IMG/VR virus record: IMGVR_UViG_3300020183_000101
Span: 1-53,619 of that record
DNA from: a virus
DNA: 53,619 nt
Strand: one strand, 5' to 3'
A program made the position numbers and the translations under genes. The notes under the pieces were generated by a model. It was not told the DNA's origin. It ran no database searches and was given only the letters and a program-made list of their open reading frames with translations. How positions within the stretch are numbered: position 1 is the stretch's first letter; each line of letters starts with the position of its first letter. Below are positions 5,964 to 35,779 of the stretch, piece after piece.

Positions 5964-6638
5964 TTATCTCGCAGCATCCCAAGCACACTGAGCACGAATA
6001 CCATCTTGAAGAACATAGTGAAAAAAGATCTGATGATAATATAGACCTTCTTTTTCCACTCTTTTCCCATACCAAGTTTTTTCGTATTCTGTTGGCATTG
6101 GATCACGCCAATGCGGACGTTCGCACCCTTTATAAATCATACCGTCACCAGGTTCAAGATCTACAGATCTATGCTCACCATTTGGAGTTTTAATCCAAAT
6201 CGACCAAGGTTCTTGTAAATTAGTGCTGATATGAACAGTTACAGAGATTTCACACGCAGCTCTATCAGTATGTTTTGTTAATTCTTGTCCAGGAAAATAA
6301 AATCTATCGTAATAATAAGTATCGTATAATTTTCTTCCAATTATTTTTTCAAGTTTGATTCTAATCTGAGAATGAATTTCTCTGTATTGTGGATGATGGT
6401 ACCTGGCAAGAGATCCCTCCACTTGTTGTTCTACTGGGTCGTGATAAAATTTATCAATAGATCCAAAGTAATTTATTTGACCTCTTTCCATTGGGACTGG
6501 ATGATACAGTTCCTCAGGATCCCATAAATTTTTTACAACAAAGTATCCATCCCTATCAAAATCTTCATTTCTAGTCCATGAAGTTCCAGTGTTAATTCTC
6601 TCTTGAAAGAGAAGATCTTCTTCTGTCATTACATCCAT
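5964..6638 (-). CDS. 2-oxoglutarate/Fe(II)-dependent oxygenase-like protein, 224 aa
   Basis: The start is taken at the ATG at 6638, eight bases after the upstream stop and preceded by GAGG; an ATG at 6677 would lie inside the neighbour. The double-stranded beta-helix signature is visible: H123-T-D125 in 'LTKHTDRAACEIS', then 'LEPGDGMIYKG' and a distal His near 176 (ERPHW), with a basic residue beyond it for 2-oxoglutarate. Such enzymes hydroxylate proteins, nucleic acids or small molecules with O2, Fe(II) and 2-oxoglutarate. It is paired with another oxygenase just upstream. The substrate is unknown; its position between fibre genes makes a virion protein or a host surface component possible. 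Confidence 0.75.
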   Translation of the reverse strand: MDVMTEEDLLFQERINTGTSWTRNEDFDRDGYFVVKNLWDPEELYHPVPMERGQINYFGSIDKFYHDPVEQQVEGSLARYHHPQYREIHSQIRIKLEKIIGRKLYDTYYYDRFYFPGQELTKHTDRAACEISVTVHISTNLQEPWSIWIKTPNGEHRSVDLEPGDGMIYKGCERPHWRDPMPTEYEKTWYGKRVEKEGLYYHQIFFHYVLQDGIRAQCAWDAAR

Positions 6639-6645
6639 ATTCACC

Positions 6646-7266
6646 TCACTTCCAACGTGGTCCAACTGTCCATCCAACGATAGACTTTCTAATTCCTTTA
6701 GTTACTTTAAGAACCCTATGTTGTGTTCTTGAATCAAAAAGAATAATTGTTCCTTTCTTTCTGGGTGCAATATAAGATCTTCCAGATTCATCCAGAAGTT
6801 GAAGATTTCCTCCTTCATAATCATCTGGATCTGACAATTGAATTACAAAGGATAATTTGCGGACAAGTTCAATGTTTTCATTCAGAAAATCATTTGCAAT
6901 ACCTTGCTCTCTGTTGCCAACAGATTGTGGTTTATACATGCCAGCAACACCTGCATCATTATGCCAACCATAAAACTCCCCTTCACGATAGCGAGTAAAT
7001 TGAAGACTCTCGCCATCAATGTTCCTTAGATCATATAAAAAGTTTTCACGATTTGCTCTCTGTATATAATGCCAGAGGAATCCAGCAACCCAATGATTGG
7101 TTGGAATCCAGGCGTTTTGTGAATTTCTTCTATCTTTATTCAGTGCATCTCCATGAAGTTTGGAGTCTGCCATTTGATTTTCAAAGTTGTTGCTAACATC
7201 ACTTTCAATAACATCAACGATTTCTTTGGGAATGTCTGTATAGTACCAAATAGATTGAAATGCCAT
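6646..7266 (-). CDS. 2OG-Fe(II) oxygenase, prolyl-4-hydroxylase-like, 206 aa
   Basis: This is the clearest oxygenase of the set. It has W-H102-N-D104 (GWHNDAG), the core strand 'KLSFVIQLSDP' with 'YEGGNL', then 'KGTIILFDSRTQH183' and R193, giving the full HxD...H...R site with His-x9-Arg. These features match the P4H/PKHD (PiuC-like) group, which usually acts on Pro or other residues in proteins. The length (206 aa) fits a single catalytic domain. A sigma70-type promoter (TTGACT-17-TACAAT, 7292-7320) lies directly upstream, unlike the late promoters of the fibre genes. A substrate among the nearby glycine/proline-rich adhesins is an attractive but untested idea. Confidence 0.85.
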   Translation of the reverse strand: MAFQSIWYYTDIPKEIVDVIESDVSNNFENQMADSKLHGDALNKDRRNSQNAWIPTNHWVAGFLWHYIQRANRENFLYDLRNIDGESLQFTRYREGEFYGWHNDAGVAGMYKPQSVGNREQGIANDFLNENIELVRKLSFVIQLSDPDDYEGGNLQLLDESGRSYIAPRKKGTIILFDSRTQHRVLKVTKGIRKSIVGWTVGPRWK

Positions 7267-7291: not shown

Positions 7292-7320
7292 ATTGTAAGA
7301 TACTTTTTTTGAATAGTCAA
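7292..7320 (-). promoter_or_regulatory. sigma70-type promoter for oxygenase genes
   Basis: On the minus strand TTGACT (7315-7320) and TACAAT (7292-7297) are separated by exactly 17 bases, each one base off consensus. The -35 overlaps the stop of the upstream gene. It suggests host-polymerase transcription before the late programme. Confidence 0.6.
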
Positions 7321-7856
7321 TTTTTGTAATGAAAGTTACCTGCAAGCACTGATCTCCCTTCGCACTTATTTTTAGGGACGCTATGGTAAATTCTACCAGG
7401 CATGATGATTGCCTGACCAGATTCCGCTTTAATTTTCTTTCTACTAGTATCTAGCACAAGAGGAGAGGAACCTTTTGGCGTATTTACATAGTAAATGAAA
7501 GAATAGGAAACATCATGTAAGTGTGAATATGTATAGTCTCCTTTATTATACACAACTCCCCAACAATCACAGAGAGATAATTTGAGAACTGCATCTGTAT
7601 TTACTTTATGAATATAATGGTGTTTGTAGATTAAAGTTTCAATCCAACCCACAACTTGTGCAATATATTCATCCATAATGAACCAATCAGTCATGTTAGC
7701 TTGAACATTTGTAGTTCTTTTTTGGGGATCATTCTTTGAAAGATTGACTATCCTCTCATGTATGAAAGGATTTAATAAAGATGCTCCAGGATGGTTATAA
7801 ATTCCTATTTTGTGATATTCTTTTACTAGGAAATCTAATTTATTAAAATTCAGCAT
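7317..7856 (-). CDS. Putative 2OG-Fe(II) oxygenase (2OG-FeII_5 type), 179 aa
   Basis: The start is the ATG at 7856 (MLNFNKLDFL); a GTG two codons earlier is less likely. The active-site pattern is H112-L-H114 ('YSHLHDVSYSFIYYVN'), then 'AIIMPGRIYH158SVP' and R168, so the first pair is HxH rather than HxD, as in the putative 2OG-FeII_5 / TIGR02466 family. The conserved 'SF/SGxxYVxxP' strand follows the metal motif. It overlaps the next upstream oxygenase gene by 14 bases, so the two are co-translated. The substrate is unknown. The family is often seen in cyanophages but its chemistry is not established. Confidence 0.75.
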   Translation of the reverse strand: MLNFNKLDFLVKEYHKIGIYNHPGASLLNPFIHERIVNLSKNDPQKRTTNVQANMTDWFIMDEYIAQVVGWIETLIYKHHYIHKVNTDAVLKLSLCDCWGVVYNKGDYTYSHLHDVSYSFIYYVNTPKGSSPLVLDTSRKKIKAESGQAIIMPGRIYHSVPKNKCEGRSVLAGNFHYKN

Positions 7857-8472
7857 ATGCACTCTTCAGACCAAATTTTCCAGTCAAGAAATAATTAAAG
7901 GAGATACAACGTCTTTTCTCTTTAGATTTAGAAACAGGAACAGAATGAAGAACATGTGAAGGGAATAAGACCATTGTTCCATCTGACACTTCTACTCCCC
8001 AATTTTTTGCATTAAAGATATTAAACTCTGATACGTTTGGTTCTAATGTGCAAGGTGCCCAGGTGGGAGATGATTGTGGGCAACTAAAATTTAATACTTC
8101 ACCGCTACCTTCAGGAACTCTGACATAAAAAACGCCACTAAAAAGACTATTGCTATGCAGATGATTAAAACACCAATCTTCTTTTTGATGATAGATTGCC
8201 CATGAACATGCGTGTTTTAAACCATAACTTTTATCAACTTTTAGAATTTCATACAAATAAAATTTTAGATGTGATTCCACAACATCTCTAATATCCGTAT
8301 AATCTTCTCTCAACAAAAGTGCCTGCTCCTTGGACATATATCCGTCCTGGTTATCAGTTCTTTCATATTCTAATTTATCAAGTCTCTCTACAAGTTCAGT
8401 TGGATCAAAGTGATCCAACTTTTTCTTATACACGGGAGAAGAAAATAAAGTATAAACTTCGGGGTGATTCAT
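7843..8472 (-). CDS. Putative 2OG-Fe(II) oxygenase (2OG-FeII_5 type), 209 aa
   Basis: N-terminal 'LFSSPVYKKKLD' is the usual opening of the TIGR02466 oxygenase family. The motif H104-L-H106-S-N-S-L-F-S-G-V-F-Y-V is the family signature, followed by 'GTMVLFPSHVLH176SVP' and an Arg pair at 187-188 for the co-substrate. It is a paralogue of the gene it overlaps downstream. The upstream region carries an extended -10 (TGCTATAAT, 8494-8502), which may be its promoter. As with its neighbours, the target is not known; a location between fibre and adhesin genes is the only clue. Confidence 0.8.
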   Translation of the reverse strand: MNHPEVYTLFSSPVYKKKLDHFDPTELVERLDKLEYERTDNQDGYMSKEQALLLREDYTDIRDVVESHLKFYLYEILKVDKSYGLKHACSWAIYHQKEDWCFNHLHSNSLFSGVFYVRVPEGSGEVLNFSCPQSSPTWAPCTLEPNVSEFNIFNAKNWGVEVSDGTMVLFPSHVLHSVPVSKSKEKRRCISFNYFLTGKFGLKSAYAEF

Positions 8473-17322: not shown

Positions 17323-17329
17323 TATTTAT
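17323..17329 (-). promoter_or_regulatory. Late promoter ATAAATA
   Basis: ATAAATAACTAAAAAA on the minus strand, 17 bases before the ATG at 17305; fourth copy of the shared leader. It overlaps the stop codon of the oxygenase gene upstream. Confidence 0.75.
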
Positions 17330-17985
17330 GTCTGATAGCAATTAACCTCACCCTTTGCCCAGAAAATAATCTGAAAAACTCTACGTGCAATATTAGATTT
17401 AACTTTAGTTACAGTATGCCAGTTCCTATAGTCTTTTGAGTTCTTGAAAAGAATACTAGAGTTATCCTTATATTTAATAGTCAATTTATTTTCAAATTCA
17501 TCAATCTCTGGATTCTTATCGTTATCATTACCGTCCAGAAAAATAAAGTCTCCACCTCCACCCCTCCAACAAAGATGTGGAAAGAAGAAAACGTGTGATG
17601 CTAATTTTCTGCAGCAATCACTATGAGGGCAAAGATCTGATCCATCTTCCATGATGGACCATTCAAAACCAATATCAAAATCATCTATATTTAATAGGTT
17701 CTTAACCTTGTTAATATAGTCTTCACTCTTAAAATAATCTATAAATCCTTCCCACTCAGAATTAATCGCAGAGGTCTCAAACAAATTATCTTTAATTTTT
17801 GAGTTAAAAGATAAAAACTTCTTCTTATGCTCTCTCTGATTGTTTCTACGATTATTGCCATCAAAATCCTCAAACTTAGAAGAACTAGGATATTGCTCCG
17901 TCAATCTATCAAATGTATGAGGATTAAAAGTTTTTTCAGAGAAATATCTATAGTTCCCAATATCTTCAAAATTGAAATTGATCAT
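17326..17985 (-). CDS. 2OG-Fe(II) oxygenase-like protein, 219 aa
   Basis: The motif H121-S-D123 ('DLCPHSDCCRKLASHVFFFP') is followed by 'GGGGDFIFLDG', a strand 'SSILFKNSKDYRNWH190TV' and Arg 201/202, the complete facial triad plus co-substrate Arg of a 2OG oxygenase. Cys residues cluster beside the metal site. The N-terminal half is helical and highly charged. It is the last gene of a five-gene overlapping cassette: its ATG lies 20 bases inside the KdsB-like gene. The context suggests it acts on a sugar, a glycan or a small precursor rather than on the fibres. The target is unknown. Confidence 0.75.
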   Translation of the reverse strand: MINFNFEDIGNYRYFSEKTFNPHTFDRLTEQYPSSSKFEDFDGNNRRNNQREHKKKFLSFNSKIKDNLFETSAINSEWEGFIDYFKSEDYINKVKNLLNIDDFDIGFEWSIMEDGSDLCPHSDCCRKLASHVFFFPHLCWRGGGGDFIFLDGNDNDKNPEIDEFENKLTIKYKDNSSILFKNSKDYRNWHTVTKVKSNIARRVFQIIFWAKGEVNCYQT

Positions 17986-18670
17986 AATTTAAATACGTTT
18001 GAACTACAGACAAATCAGCAGGAACATCAACTCCATGAGTAAAATGATCAATCGCATGACAATTGTATTCGTACCCGATTTCTATCCACTTCATCGGATG
18101 AATTTTTTCCAAAACTTCTAAATTAGTTTGTGGTATTGACATAAAATTTTTTAACTGATCTCTAGTGTAAGAATAAACACCAACATGCCTATAACCAGTA
18201 TTCAAGGGGTGACGAGTTATATAAACAATTTTTTTCTGGTAATCATCGGCAATTGCTTTACAGATGTTTTTATCTGCTATTTGAAATTGATCTAAAGGTG
18301 ATATCAAACAAGTTGGATTTTTAGTAATCAAACTTTTTTCGTATAGTCCAATCAAATCTTTTTTAGTAACCAGAGGTTCATCCGCTTGAAGTTCTACAAT
18401 CCTATTCGTTTTAATCTTAGAAATGTACTCGGATATTCTCTCAGTAGAATTATTATGATTACCCGTTATTTCAACAAATATTTTGTTCTTAATACATTCA
18501 TTCAAAATATCGTGATGATCTGTTAAAACGATAACATTATCCTTTCCAAAGGCATCAATTGCATTCCTTGCAGTATGAACAACCATGGATGTTCCGTTGA
18601 TCTTAGAAAGTGCTTTTCCAAAGAATCTAGTGCTACCAAGTCTTGCTGGAATTAAGCAAGTGACATCCAT
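17966..18670 (-). CDS. CMP-Kdo synthetase-like cytidylyltransferase (KdsB-like), 234 aa
   Basis: Residues 7-15 (IPARLGSTR, then FFGKALSKI) match the CTP-binding loop of 3-deoxy-manno-octulosonate cytidylyltransferases. 'VELQADEPLV' matches the Mg-binding QGDEPL motif. 'ITRHPLNTGYRHVGVYSYTRDQL' and the final 'GVDVPADL' match later family motifs. The length (234 aa) is close to the usual ~250. One difference: the family's LEQLR segment is replaced by 'LEKIHPMKW', so the sugar acid may not be Kdo itself. The reaction would be CTP + acidic sugar to CMP-sugar. It overlaps its neighbours on both sides and points to surface-glycan work. Confidence 0.85.
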   Translation of the reverse strand: MDVTCLIPARLGSTRFFGKALSKINGTSMVVHTARNAIDAFGKDNVIVLTDHHDILNECIKNKIFVEITGNHNNSTERISEYISKIKTNRIVELQADEPLVTKKDLIGLYEKSLITKNPTCLISPLDQFQIADKNICKAIADDYQKKIVYITRHPLNTGYRHVGVYSYTRDQLKNFMSIPQTNLEVLEKIHPMKWIEIGYEYNCHAIDHFTHGVDVPADLSVVQTYLNYDQFQF

Positions 18671-19434
18671 AGGTCTCTATAAGAATTACCATACATCGTA
18701 CCACAGGTATTACAGTTTTTGCAAGGAGAAATGTCTCTATTTTCTAAAAGAACTTTCCTATACTTTTGATAGGTCAAATCCTTCCAGACATCCATAAGAT
18801 GATTAGAGAATATATTTCCCAAGATATACTTTTTAGACCAGTCCTGAGGGCATAGGTAAGTGTCTCCGTTGTGATTAATGTACATGTAATATAATGGATA
18901 GTTACAAGGTTTTGTTACATCAATTTCTCCACCATAATTCACATATCCAGATCTATTTGTAAGAGTATCAAAAGACTGCCATCTTTCTCTTAGAGAATAA
19001 CTCAGACCATTCAATAAACTCTCAAATTTTTCTATTTGATGCGGACCATCATACATGCTAATAGAAACATGATCAGGTAGTTCCGCAATTTCTCTTGTCA
19101 GAAAATCACCATTCGTAACTAACTCTGCAGTCCATTTGGTACTTTTGACTGCTTTAATAATTTCCGAAACATTTGGATTTTGTAAGGGTTCGCCAAATCC
19201 ACAGAAACAAAGAATTCCTTCAAATCCAATTTCCTCCAGATCCTTTTTAATTTTCAGTGCCTGTTCAACAGACATGTATGATCCTTCATCTTTCCAACCA
19301 TGCGCTCTAGGGCAGAAATCACATTTACGATTACAAGTTGGACTGATGTTGATCTCAAGAAATGATGGAATAGGATGCCCATCAAATAAAATAACTTTAT
19401 CCGTTCTTTCTTTTTTCCAAGTTTTATAGTCCAT
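18652..19434 (-). CDS. Radical SAM enzyme with SPASM-like C-terminus, 260 aa
   Basis: The start is the ATG at 19434, sharing one base with the upstream stop (TGATG). C34-NRK-C38-DF-C41 is the CxxxCxxC motif that binds the 4Fe-4S cluster and SAM. 'CFCGFGEPL' is the GGE-type strand. The C-terminus carries 'KPCNYPLYYMYINHNGDTYL' then CPQDW and CKNCNTC, the Cys pattern of SPASM/Twitch domains that hold extra FeS clusters. Such enzymes modify peptides, sugars or cofactors by radical chemistry. In this cassette a sugar or a peptide on a surface structure is plausible. The family call is firm; the substrate is unknown. Confidence 0.9.
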   Translation of the reverse strand: MDYKTWKKERTDKVILFDGHPIPSFLEINISPTCNRKCDFCPRAHGWKDEGSYMSVEQALKIKKDLEEIGFEGILCFCGFGEPLQNPNVSEIIKAVKSTKWTAELVTNGDFLTREIAELPDHVSISMYDGPHQIEKFESLLNGLSYSLRERWQSFDTLTNRSGYVNYGGEIDVTKPCNYPLYYMYINHNGDTYLCPQDWSKKYILGNIFSNHLMDVWKDLTYQKYRKVLLENRDISPCKNCNTCGTMYGNSYRDLWMSLA

Positions 19435-19937
19435 CAAAAATAATTAAAGTTGAGGGTAATTCTTCTCCAATCATCAGTACAGTTTGTGCTGTTATGAAGA
19501 ATGTTCGACTTAAATATTGCCAGACGATTTTCTACGCTTTCAATTTTTGCACCATCTTCAAGTGCGGTGTATCCATTATTGGAATTAACATAATAGACTG
19601 CAACAAAAAGATCATGAGGCGAATCATAATGCTTCCCATGAGTTACAAATTGATTTTGATTTACATATAAGTTTCCTTTCACCCTAGACAATGCTTTTGG
19701 TTTTAAAATATTTAAGATTGGAAGTAGAATTTGATAATCTCTAGAGACATGAACATTATAATCAGTATGATATTCAAAGAAAGTGTGATAGAAATAAGAA
19801 AATGGAAATGCCTTTTCCTCTATGTCCTCAGTGATATTTTCTTGAAAATACCAATCACAATGATTCATCATGTAATCTTTTAGTTGAAAAAAATGCTCTG
19901 GAGATAAAGCATTATCAATGACCTCATAATTTTTCAT
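19434..19937 (-). CDS. 2OG-Fe(II) oxygenase-like protein, 167 aa
   Basis: A small member with H103-Y-D105 ('THGKHYDSPHDLFVAVYYVN'), 'ENRLAIFKSNILH148' and Arg 158/159 in 'DDWRRITLNFNY', so all the expected ligands are present at normal spacing. Its N-terminus 'YEVIDNALSPEHFFQLKDYM' is a common opening of phage-encoded oxygenases. It overlaps the gene before by 14 bases and the radical SAM gene after by one. Position two in the cassette suggests it works on the same product as the radical SAM enzyme and the cytidylyltransferase. The substrate is unknown. Confidence 0.8.
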   Translation of the reverse strand: MKNYEVIDNALSPEHFFQLKDYMMNHCDWYFQENITEDIEEKAFPFSYFYHTFFEYHTDYNVHVSRDYQILLPILNILKPKALSRVKGNLYVNQNQFVTHGKHYDSPHDLFVAVYYVNSNNGYTALEDGAKIESVENRLAIFKSNILHNSTNCTDDWRRITLNFNYF

Positions 19938-21009
19938 AAAAATCTTTTGCTTTCTGAGAAATAGTTACTGGTTTAAAATATTCACAATTTTCTTTTGTCT
20001 TTTCAAATAAATCATGAGGTTTGTTGAAAGGGAGTACCTCATAATCCTTATGCTTATCCCCTGTTAGTCTAACATAGTTTTCGTGCAACACCAATAGGTC
20101 ATCATACAGTTGTTCAGGTGGTTTAATTCTGTCAAGAGAGAGGAAGTTATAAATCCAGTAATTCTTGTCCTCAAGATCATTCACAAAAACATCCTGAGCA
20201 TAAGTCATAAAGTCTCGCCAAATCTGAGGTTTTCTATCCCAAGAAACAGTATATGTTTTTGAAGTTGCTTCATGAAATTTTCTCTGATTTTTTAAATCCC
20301 CAAGATCATCTGGTAGATCTGGTTGATAATGTATATCACTCTTGTATATTTTTACAGGTTTTTTACAGAAAGCAGCATATACCATACTAGAAGTCATCCC
20401 ATTAGTATAGACAACTTCTGATAATTCTAGAATATTTTTTTGTTTCTTTCTCCAATCAACATCAAATCCATTGAATCCTAAACAGTAAATCTTATCAACT
20501 ATTTCTCTCGGATAATGAGTCCAATAATATTCGTAGTCTTCTGGAAATGCAATATAAACTGGATTATCATGTCCCAACCCTTTAAGTTCATCAATTAAAT
20601 CTTTAATTTTTTGAGGATCTTTAGACAACCAAGTTTTAAATGGATTATCTCTCTTCGGTAAAAATACAGTTTGATATCTAGGAGTTGCTTTTATCGCATG
20701 AGAATCGTAAAGATACTCTGCATATGCAAAGGGAGAACAACCACCATAACGACCCCTCTTCTCTACTTTTTTATTACACTCATTACCCCAAAAATACTTA
20801 GCACTAGGGTATCCCATGATTTCACACCATGGAACTGGATTAAAAAAATTTTCTATACCAACACTATTATTTGTTAAAAACAAAAAATTAGATCCACACC
20901 AATCATTTAAGATTGTTTTTTGAGAAAAAGATGAATGTGGATCTAATTTTGTTTCTCTATTTACAAATATATTTCCGTTGATATCAAAATCAATTATTGG
21001 TAGATGCAT
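19924..21009 (-). CDS. Glycosyltransferase-like protein of unknown function, 361 aa
   Basis: No firm family. The mid region has the layout of a GT-B type nucleotide-sugar-binding domain: a strand 'HDNPVYIAFPEDY', 'VDKIYCLGF', then 'LSEVVYTNGMTSSMVYAAFC' followed by KKPVKIY. The last part resembles the 'xxTxxSSxxxxAxxxGKPV' loop of capsule- and Kdo-type glycosyltransferases. The N-terminus (MHLPIIDFDINGNIF) and C-terminus are charged and helical. It is the first gene of the five-gene cassette and so sets its context. A transferase using the CMP-sugar made by the KdsB-like enzyme is the simplest reading, but it is inference. Confidence 0.65.
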   Translation of the reverse strand: MHLPIIDFDINGNIFVNRETKLDPHSSFSQKTILNDWCGSNFLFLTNNSVGIENFFNPVPWCEIMGYPSAKYFWGNECNKKVEKRGRYGGCSPFAYAEYLYDSHAIKATPRYQTVFLPKRDNPFKTWLSKDPQKIKDLIDELKGLGHDNPVYIAFPEDYEYYWTHYPREIVDKIYCLGFNGFDVDWRKKQKNILELSEVVYTNGMTSSMVYAAFCKKPVKIYKSDIHYQPDLPDDLGDLKNQRKFHEATSKTYTVSWDRKPQIWRDFMTYAQDVFVNDLEDKNYWIYNFLSLDRIKPPEQLYDDLLVLHENYVRLTGDKHKDYEVLPFNKPHDLFEKTKENCEYFKPVTISQKAKDFYEKL

Positions 21010-35277: not shown

Positions 35278-35298
35278 TTTGGAGTTTATAGAACTCAG

Positions 35299-35370
35299 AG
35301 CCCCCGACAGGGATCAAACCTGCGACCTGAAATTTACAAAATTCCTGCTCTATCACTGAGCTACAGAGGC
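35299..35370 (-). tRNA. tRNA-Thr (anticodon UGU)
   Basis: A full cloverleaf on the minus strand: acceptor GCCTCTG with CGGGGGC (G-U pairs allowed), D-stem GCTC/GAGC, anticodon stem GGAAT/ATTTC around the loop TTTGTAA, and T-stem GCAGG/CCTGT. The loop gives anticodon TGT, which reads ACA. The length is 72 bases with discriminator T and no encoded CCA. Confidence 0.9.
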
Positions 35371-35372
35371 GA

Positions 35373-35642
35373 TTAATCAACAGGCAACATTTCTGGATTT
35401 TCCAGTTCAACTTCAAACATGAGAGGATGACATAATTCATCAATTAAGTAAAAAGATGACTTATATAAGTCCTCTGGTTCAAACCTTCTTTCGTTGTCTG
35501 CTAGATGAATCACTTCCAAATCTTGCATTGCACAATCTGGAAGTTCGTCAAAAGTAAATGGAACTTGGTTTATGAAATATATTAGAACTATTTTTGTCCC
35601 TTTATTGTACCAACAATAAGCAGTATCAATACGATATTTCAT
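35373..35642 (-). CDS. Conserved small protein, 89 aa
   Basis: It starts MKYRIDTAYCWYNKGTKIVL with AGGAG eight bases before the ATG. The first half is beta-rich (KIVLIYFINQVPFTFDELPD), the second has 'MQDLEVIHLADNERRFEPED' and ends acidic (VELENPEML). Three Cys are spread without a metal pattern. It lies three bases from tRNA-Thr and 48 from tRNA-Leu, so the three are co-transcribed. A CTAAATA box lies at 35665. No family is recognised. Confidence 0.7.
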   Translation of the reverse strand: MKYRIDTAYCWYNKGTKIVLIYFINQVPFTFDELPDCAMQDLEVIHLADNERRFEPEDLYKSSFYLIDELCHPLMFEVELENPEMLPVD

Positions 35643-35664
35643 AGGATTTGCTCCTACTTTTGAC

Positions 35665-35671
35665 TATTTAG
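35665..35671 (-). promoter_or_regulatory. Late-promoter-like box CTAAATA
   Basis: CTAAATAG on the minus strand 23 bases before the ATG at 35642, between the tRNA-Leu gene and the 89-aa gene. Confidence 0.45.
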
Positions 35672-35689
35672 AGGTCAGTTAAATCATCA

Positions 35690-35773
35690 TAGGGCGAGAG
35701 GGACTTGAACCCTCACGGGATTACTCCCAACAGATTTTAAGTCTGGTGTGTCTACCACTTCCACCACCGCCCC
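35690..35773 (-). tRNA. tRNA-Leu (anticodon UAA)
   Basis: 84 bases with a long variable arm (TTGGGAGTAATCCCG), as expected for tRNA-Leu. The acceptor GGGGCGG pairs with TCGCCCT (two G-U pairs), the T-stem is GAGGG/CCCTC, the anticodon loop CTTAAAA gives TAA (reads UUA), and the discriminator is A. No CCA is encoded. Confidence 0.9.
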
Positions 35774-35779
35774 AGAAAA

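Follow-up and report, generated by a model that had tools for sequence, protein, structure and literature searches.

Here, we describe a cassette of five overlapping open reading frames, all on the minus strand, at positions 17326-21009 of the window, i.e. of the whole 53,619-base stretch of DNA that was analysed. From the first to the last gene, the cassette reads:

19924..21009, minus strand: 361-aa protein, first cassette gene, likely a GT-B glycosyltransferase (GT) of an unnamed phage family (family profile and model)
19434..19937, minus strand: 167-aa predicted 2OG-Fe(II) oxygenase (PF13640 below cut-off, phrog_274, residues HYD 103-105 and H148)
18652..19434, minus strand: 260-aa radical SAM/SPASM enzyme (PF04055, PF13186, cysteine motif)
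17966..18670, minus strand: 234-aa KdsB-family cytidylyltransferase (PF02348, NCBIfam, PDB matches, motif table)
17326..17985, minus strand: 219-aa predicted 2OG-Fe(II) oxygenase, last cassette gene (PF13640 below cut-off, residues HSD 121-123 and H190)

The five genes form four junctions, with overlaps of 14, 1 (of the TGATG type), 19 and 20 bases. The overlaps listed in an earlier note on this DNA are real, but the note gave five numbers, the 1-base junction being entered twice. The radical SAM gene starts at ATG 19434 (260 aa) or, alternatively, at TTG 19437 (261 aa), and a scan for promoters and terminators gave nothing above chance. Tail, fibre and baseplate families of a T4-like cyanophage flank the cassette, as expected from its earlier placement inside a fibre block, and the baseplate hub protein of the window has its best matches in S-SM2 and Bellamy (43-44% identity). 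By its position among fibre genes, the cassette belongs with the cargo of the host recognition cluster of marine T4-like phages. The record is probably a fragment of a phage genome; within this fragment we found no KdsA-like gene for sugar-acid synthesis and no SIS or HAD partner gene. Genes for tRNA-Thr(TGT) and tRNA-Leu(TAA) lie inside the fibre block at 35298-35774, and tRNA-Leu and tRNA-Thr genes likewise adjoin the fibre and radical SAM genes of the phage S-SCSM2R. A DNA search of phage records returned a sole match of 92 bases. When the 361-aa, KdsB-like and radical SAM proteins were each used as a single query against viral contigs, no match was returned; the relatives on viral contigs were detected with alignments, not with single proteins.

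The 260-aa protein contains SPASM (PF13186, 4.5e-14) and Radical_SAM (PF04055, 9.4e-12) domains, both above cut-off, together with a C34-x3-C38-x2-C41 cluster motif and five auxiliary-cluster cysteines (177, 195, 238, 241 and 244). Its Pfam domains and CxxxCxxC motif thus bear out the original radical SAM/SPASM call, and the KdsB-like call holds up equally on PF02348 (CTP_transf_3, 1.7e-25), on PDB matches that are all KdsB (best 1gq9, 8.7e-20) and on the conserved catalytic motifs IPARxxSxR...K, QxDEP and VD. The NCBIfam KdsB models match the 234-aa protein (E 8.5e-44) with scores below their cut-offs (NF003952, 149.6 bits for a cut-off of 193; TIGR00466, 93.9 bits for a cut-off of 155.2). 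In the two predicted oxygenases the iron-binding HxD...H residues are present, but their matches to PF13640 (2OG-FeII_Oxy_3; 3.9e-4 for the 167-aa and 8.6e-4 for the 219-aa protein) score 21.8 and 20.6 and remain below the cut-off of 27, so that the earlier oxygenase assignment is weakly supported. The 167-aa protein in addition matches phrog_274 (2.4e-40). This PHROG is labelled 'DNA endonuclease V' (denV in S-SSM7) and matches 2OG-oxygenase-like proteins at 19434-19937 and 7317-7862 of the window, for which the label is probably wrong.

Is the five-gene order a fixed unit? In a related viral contig (L008, an 84 kb record), the GT, 2OG, radical SAM and second 2OG genes are found in the same order and overlapping, within a fibre block that shows partial colinearity to the window. 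The amino-acid identity between both phages is 37% for the GT, about 55-56% for the 167-aa oxygenase, about 65-66% for the radical SAM enzyme and 65% for the 219-aa oxygenase. The three better conserved genes show 2-3 times fewer changes at codon position 2 than at position 3, whereas the contrast is weak in the GT gene (0.38 at position 2 versus 0.52 at position 3). The cassette does not reflect chance, since four of its five genes recur in L008, overlapping and in unchanged order. In L008, however, kdsB is absent between the radical SAM gene and the second 2OG gene, the stop of the former overlapping the start of the latter by 8 bases, which rules out a fixed five-gene unit that includes kdsB. 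A second L008 operon, about 10 kb downstream, holds overlapping GT, kdsB, HAD and SIS genes. When queried with the 219-aa oxygenase, the viral contigs yielded L008 alone, and no viral relative of this protein other than the L008 copy. Together with the missing kdsB, this result defines a core of four genes seen twice, with kdsB as an extra in the window. Thus, GT-2OG-radical SAM-2OG makes up the conserved core, to which this phage has added kdsB. Of the proposal that all five genes form one system, the co-occurrence of four in a related phage survives, but the five-gene unit does not.

The fibre block of L008 holds several further 2OG-like genes. Two window proteins at 5964-7266 have 60-75% identical counterparts in L008 directly after its cassette; their PHROG matches (phrog_2954, phrog_3531 and phrog_61) carry the label 'ferrochelatase' next to one for a 2OG family, and this labelling looks mixed up.

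The 361-aa protein found no family match in Pfam, PHROG or NCBIfam. Members of its family were first spotted near kdsB in AG-345-D19, and a profile constructed from 34 distant relatives linked to kdsB, with the window, L008 and the viral contig L096 left out, retrieves the 361-aa protein at E=6e-7 without hitting any unrelated protein. A scan with the GT family only yielded 47 viral loci, 41 of which contain kdsB (32 of 38 when the 9 contigs previously found via the kdsB scan are set aside); the other 6 contigs end before the expected kdsB. The loci lie in the fibre block with SIS and HAD genes as usual companions, and in many contigs the GT family shows strict synteny with particular fibre genes. 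In L096 and L107, GT and kdsB overlap by 4 bases and form a single operon. A profile search of 300 Prochlorococcaceae and 247 Pelagibacteraceae genomes found no member of the family; in the positive control, the same search gave matches in all six viral records. By sequence comparison, the 361-aa protein belongs to an undescribed phage protein family.

A model of one family member (pLDDT 91.4, pTM 0.91) has a short N-terminal half, and its C-terminal end is long and helical. Of the 16 entries that match this model best in the PDB, 14 are glycosyltransferases, as are 15 of the best 16 in BFVD; almost all are of the GT-B type, none reaches E<=0.001 and the TM is at most 0.36. The model of the window protein itself is weak (pLDDT 57) and serves as a ranking only, in which TagF, a CDP-glycerol polymerase, came first. 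A profile search of the PDB with the GT family and a comparison of its members, one by one, with Pfam returned chance matches only. Structure prediction hence leans toward a glycosyltransferase fold, as the earlier note had suggested, but without a match at the threshold given above. Judging from the models, the 361-aa protein is likely a divergent GT-B enzyme, and our one reason to propose a CMP-sugar donor for it is the linkage of its family with kdsB.

Which sugar acid would be activated? LEQLR, which we take from the E. coli KdsB structures to be the Kdo-contact motif, is kept in the Prochlorococcus KdsB copies inside Kdo operons; at this position, the window KdsB reads IHPMK and the GT-linked phage copies read GLDTIGF. 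Due to this exchange and the scores below the curated cut-offs, the substrate sugar is probably not plain Kdo. CMP-Kdo as the product, and plain Kdo as the substrate of the window enzyme, accordingly appear doubtful. In a tree, the window KdsB sits on a long branch outside the phage kdsB clade, with an unsure placement; the tree rejects the idea that this gene is the usual phage copy, and GT and kdsB have thus probably been paired at least twice.

The cellular relatives of the radical SAM enzyme, about 31-41% identical and mostly from marine bacteria, are in many cases located beside KdsB-family genes. In 24 of 78 cellular loci, the relative has a KdsB-like gene at a distance of at most 3 kb, whereas the twelve such genomes examined contain 1 to 6 PF02348 matches each over their full length. 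Five of the 300 Prochlorococcaceae genomes contain a close relative (E<=1e-55), in all five cases within 3 kb of a Kdo8P synthase gene; these five loci may share one ancestor and would then not be independent events. In three Prochlorococcus single-cell genomes (L115-L117) the radical SAM gene lies inside a full Kdo operon. Its neighbours in L115 and L116 exceed the curated cut-offs for KdsA, KdsC, a KpsF/KdsD-type isomerase and a KdsB subfamily model, and a class III aminotransferase is encoded upstream in L115. Since Kdo8P synthase scored over the cut-off in 10 of the 41 searched genomes of the genus Prochlorococcus, some hosts may make Kdo. On the viral side, the contigs L058, L081 and L085 carry aminotransferase-radical SAM/SPASM-kdsB-methyltransferase operons near fibre genes, with kdsB directly after the radical SAM gene and overlapping it.

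Radical SAM genes were also found in other arrangements. Four viral contigs (L067, L069, L070 and L073) contain about a dozen radical SAM genes in 20 kb, adjoining an aminotransferase gene, and in Campylobacter phage CJLB-12 (L004 3216-10243) five radical SAM-like genes, an amidinotransferase-like and an aminotransferase-like gene form one block annotated as hypothetical. The Synechococcus phage S-SCSM2R encodes KdsB, KdsA, an amidinotransferase and two 2OG oxygenases in one block (L002 9995-14413).

Here, we observed directly the gene order, the membership in protein families and two genetic linkages, that of the GT family to kdsB and that of the radical SAM relatives to Kdo genes. The GT-kdsB linkage and the radical SAM relatives in Prochlorococcus Kdo operons support the joint pathway of a CMP-activated sugar acid that had been suggested for this locus. 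We consider this pathway class, a CMP-sugar acid plus its transfer, to be probable, with a sugar acid that is probably related but not identical to Kdo. To the full reading, in which a CMP-activated 2-keto-3-deoxy sugar acid is tailored and then moved to a surface glycan of the infected cell, we assign a probability of roughly 0.4; which reactions take place and in which sequence, on which sugar and with which acceptor, is what we infer from the genes. The KdsB-family enzyme would couple the sugar acid to CTP, and the radical SAM/SPASM enzyme would oxidise or otherwise alter the sugar or its precursor. BtrN-type radical SAM dehydrogenases oxidise aminosugars. One or both 2OG oxygenases could hydroxylate the sugar, as the Fe2+/2OG-dependent Kdo hydroxylase KdoO does with Kdo (PMC8533242), and the 361-aa GT-B-like protein would attach the sugar acid to a glycan on the surface of the infected cell. 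We speculate that such a change could alter the receptor and shut out other phages, or stop progeny from sticking to debris. The cellular relatives of the radical SAM and KdsB enzymes, which sit in surface-glycan loci, speak for the host surface, and passages of PMC7029224 propose a surface change by such phage cargo.

Several observations count against this full reading: the IHPMK found in place of LEQLR, the KdsA-like, SIS and HAD genes not present in the window, the structural matches that do not reach E<=0.001, and the LPS of the tested marine Synechococcus strains WH8102 and CC9311, which contains no Kdo (PMC4515613). Transfer of Kdo to host LPS therefore needs a differing host or another sugar. 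We regard the pathway class as well supported, but not Kdo itself, given the altered Kdo-contact motif and the Kdo-free Synechococcus LPS.

Could the same pathway act on the phage's own fibres? Hydroxylation by the 2OG enzymes would then target the sugar or residues of the fibre, to which the 361-aa enzyme would attach the sugar acid so as to tune adhesion or conceal the fibre. The GT family is phage-only among what was searched, and that none of the 547 likely-host genomes contains it lends no weight to a host-type acceptor; its strict synteny with particular fibre genes, the additional 2OG-like genes in the L008 fibre block and the Kdo-free LPS of the tested Synechococcus would also suit a fibre acceptor. 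However, the cellular radical SAM and KdsB relatives come from surface-polysaccharide and Kdo loci and not from protein glycosylation, and genes that mask a receptor would be co-inherited with fibres, too, so that we judge a fibre acceptor to be somewhat unlikely. A broader form, in which a phage-only family of CMP-sugar-acid transferases with its own activation genes is inherited with particular fibre genes in marine T4-like phages and glycosylates fibres, the radical SAM and oxygenase tailoring being added here, seems unlikely. We found no description of such a combination of GT, activation gene and radical SAM/oxygenase tailoring.

The cassette might also reflect no joint pathway, with separate tailoring genes joined by shuffling and translational coupling in a hypervariable host-recognition region. 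Such fast-changing cargo is exemplified by the kdsB missing at this place in L008, by S-SCSM2R, in which the radical SAM/SPASM gene lies near a tail fibre and about 60 kb from kdsB on the circular map, and, in passages of PMC7029224, by radical SAM cassettes of pelagimyophage host-recognition clusters that vary among close relatives. We nevertheless consider this quite unlikely, given that the order and overlaps of four genes are maintained between two phages whose proteins diverge by 35 to 63%, and that kdsB is paired repeatedly with GT and with radical SAM genes. Many SPASM enzymes act as peptide maturases, and the weak similarity of the window enzyme to these, among many radical SAM models, as well as the position among fibre genes would agree with radical SAM and 2OG enzymes that modify fibre peptides, kdsB being unrelated cargo, but no precursor-peptide gene was seen and the close cellular radical SAM relatives lie in Kdo and polysaccharide loci, which makes this highly improbable.

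How does the preferred reading, a tailored sugar acid transferred to the cell surface, relate to known systems? The host recognition cluster of marine T4-like phages (pelagimyophages and cyanophages) is described in passages of PMC7029224 as a hypervariable fibre block with glycosyltransferases and radical SAM cassettes, like the surroundings of the cassette, and its cargo is proposed there to alter the host surface. Unlike our findings, these passages mention no sugar-acid pathway, no such GT family and no GT-2OG-radical SAM-2OG core, and the word 'cytidylyltransferase' does not occur in PMC7029224. The Kdo pathway (KdsD-KdsA-KdsC-KdsB) with KdoO shares with the cassette a KdsB-family CTP enzyme and a 2OG oxygenase for a Kdo-type sugar, and in the Prochlorococcus relatives the radical SAM gene forms part of such an operon; the window differs in having the KdsB-like step only, with other Kdo-contact residues, and in adding a radical SAM enzyme and an unrelated transferase. 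The GT-B enzymes TagF/TarL, WaaF and KpsC resemble the 361-aa protein in the structural ranking of both the GT family and the weak window model, but show no significant sequence or fold match, and the GT model departs from them with its short N-terminal half and long helical C-terminal end. The viral operons of L058, L081 and L085 share the radical SAM gene followed by an overlapping kdsB near fibre genes and, unlike the window, contain an aminotransferase and a methyltransferase in place of a transferase of the 361-aa type.

In summary, surface-modifying cargo in the fibre blocks of marine T4-like phages is not new, but the four-gene core and the repeated association of kdsB with an unnamed GT-like family are. 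The analysis also ties a radical SAM/SPASM family that has no assigned reaction to Kdo operons of Prochlorococcus, though the LPS of the studied marine Synechococcus is reportedly free of Kdo. Sugar genes among the fibres of these phages were known, and the recurring GT-cytidylyltransferase unit adds a testable chemistry, a CMP-activated sugar acid, and names the first enzyme to assay as well as the places to seek its product, the host surface or the virion.
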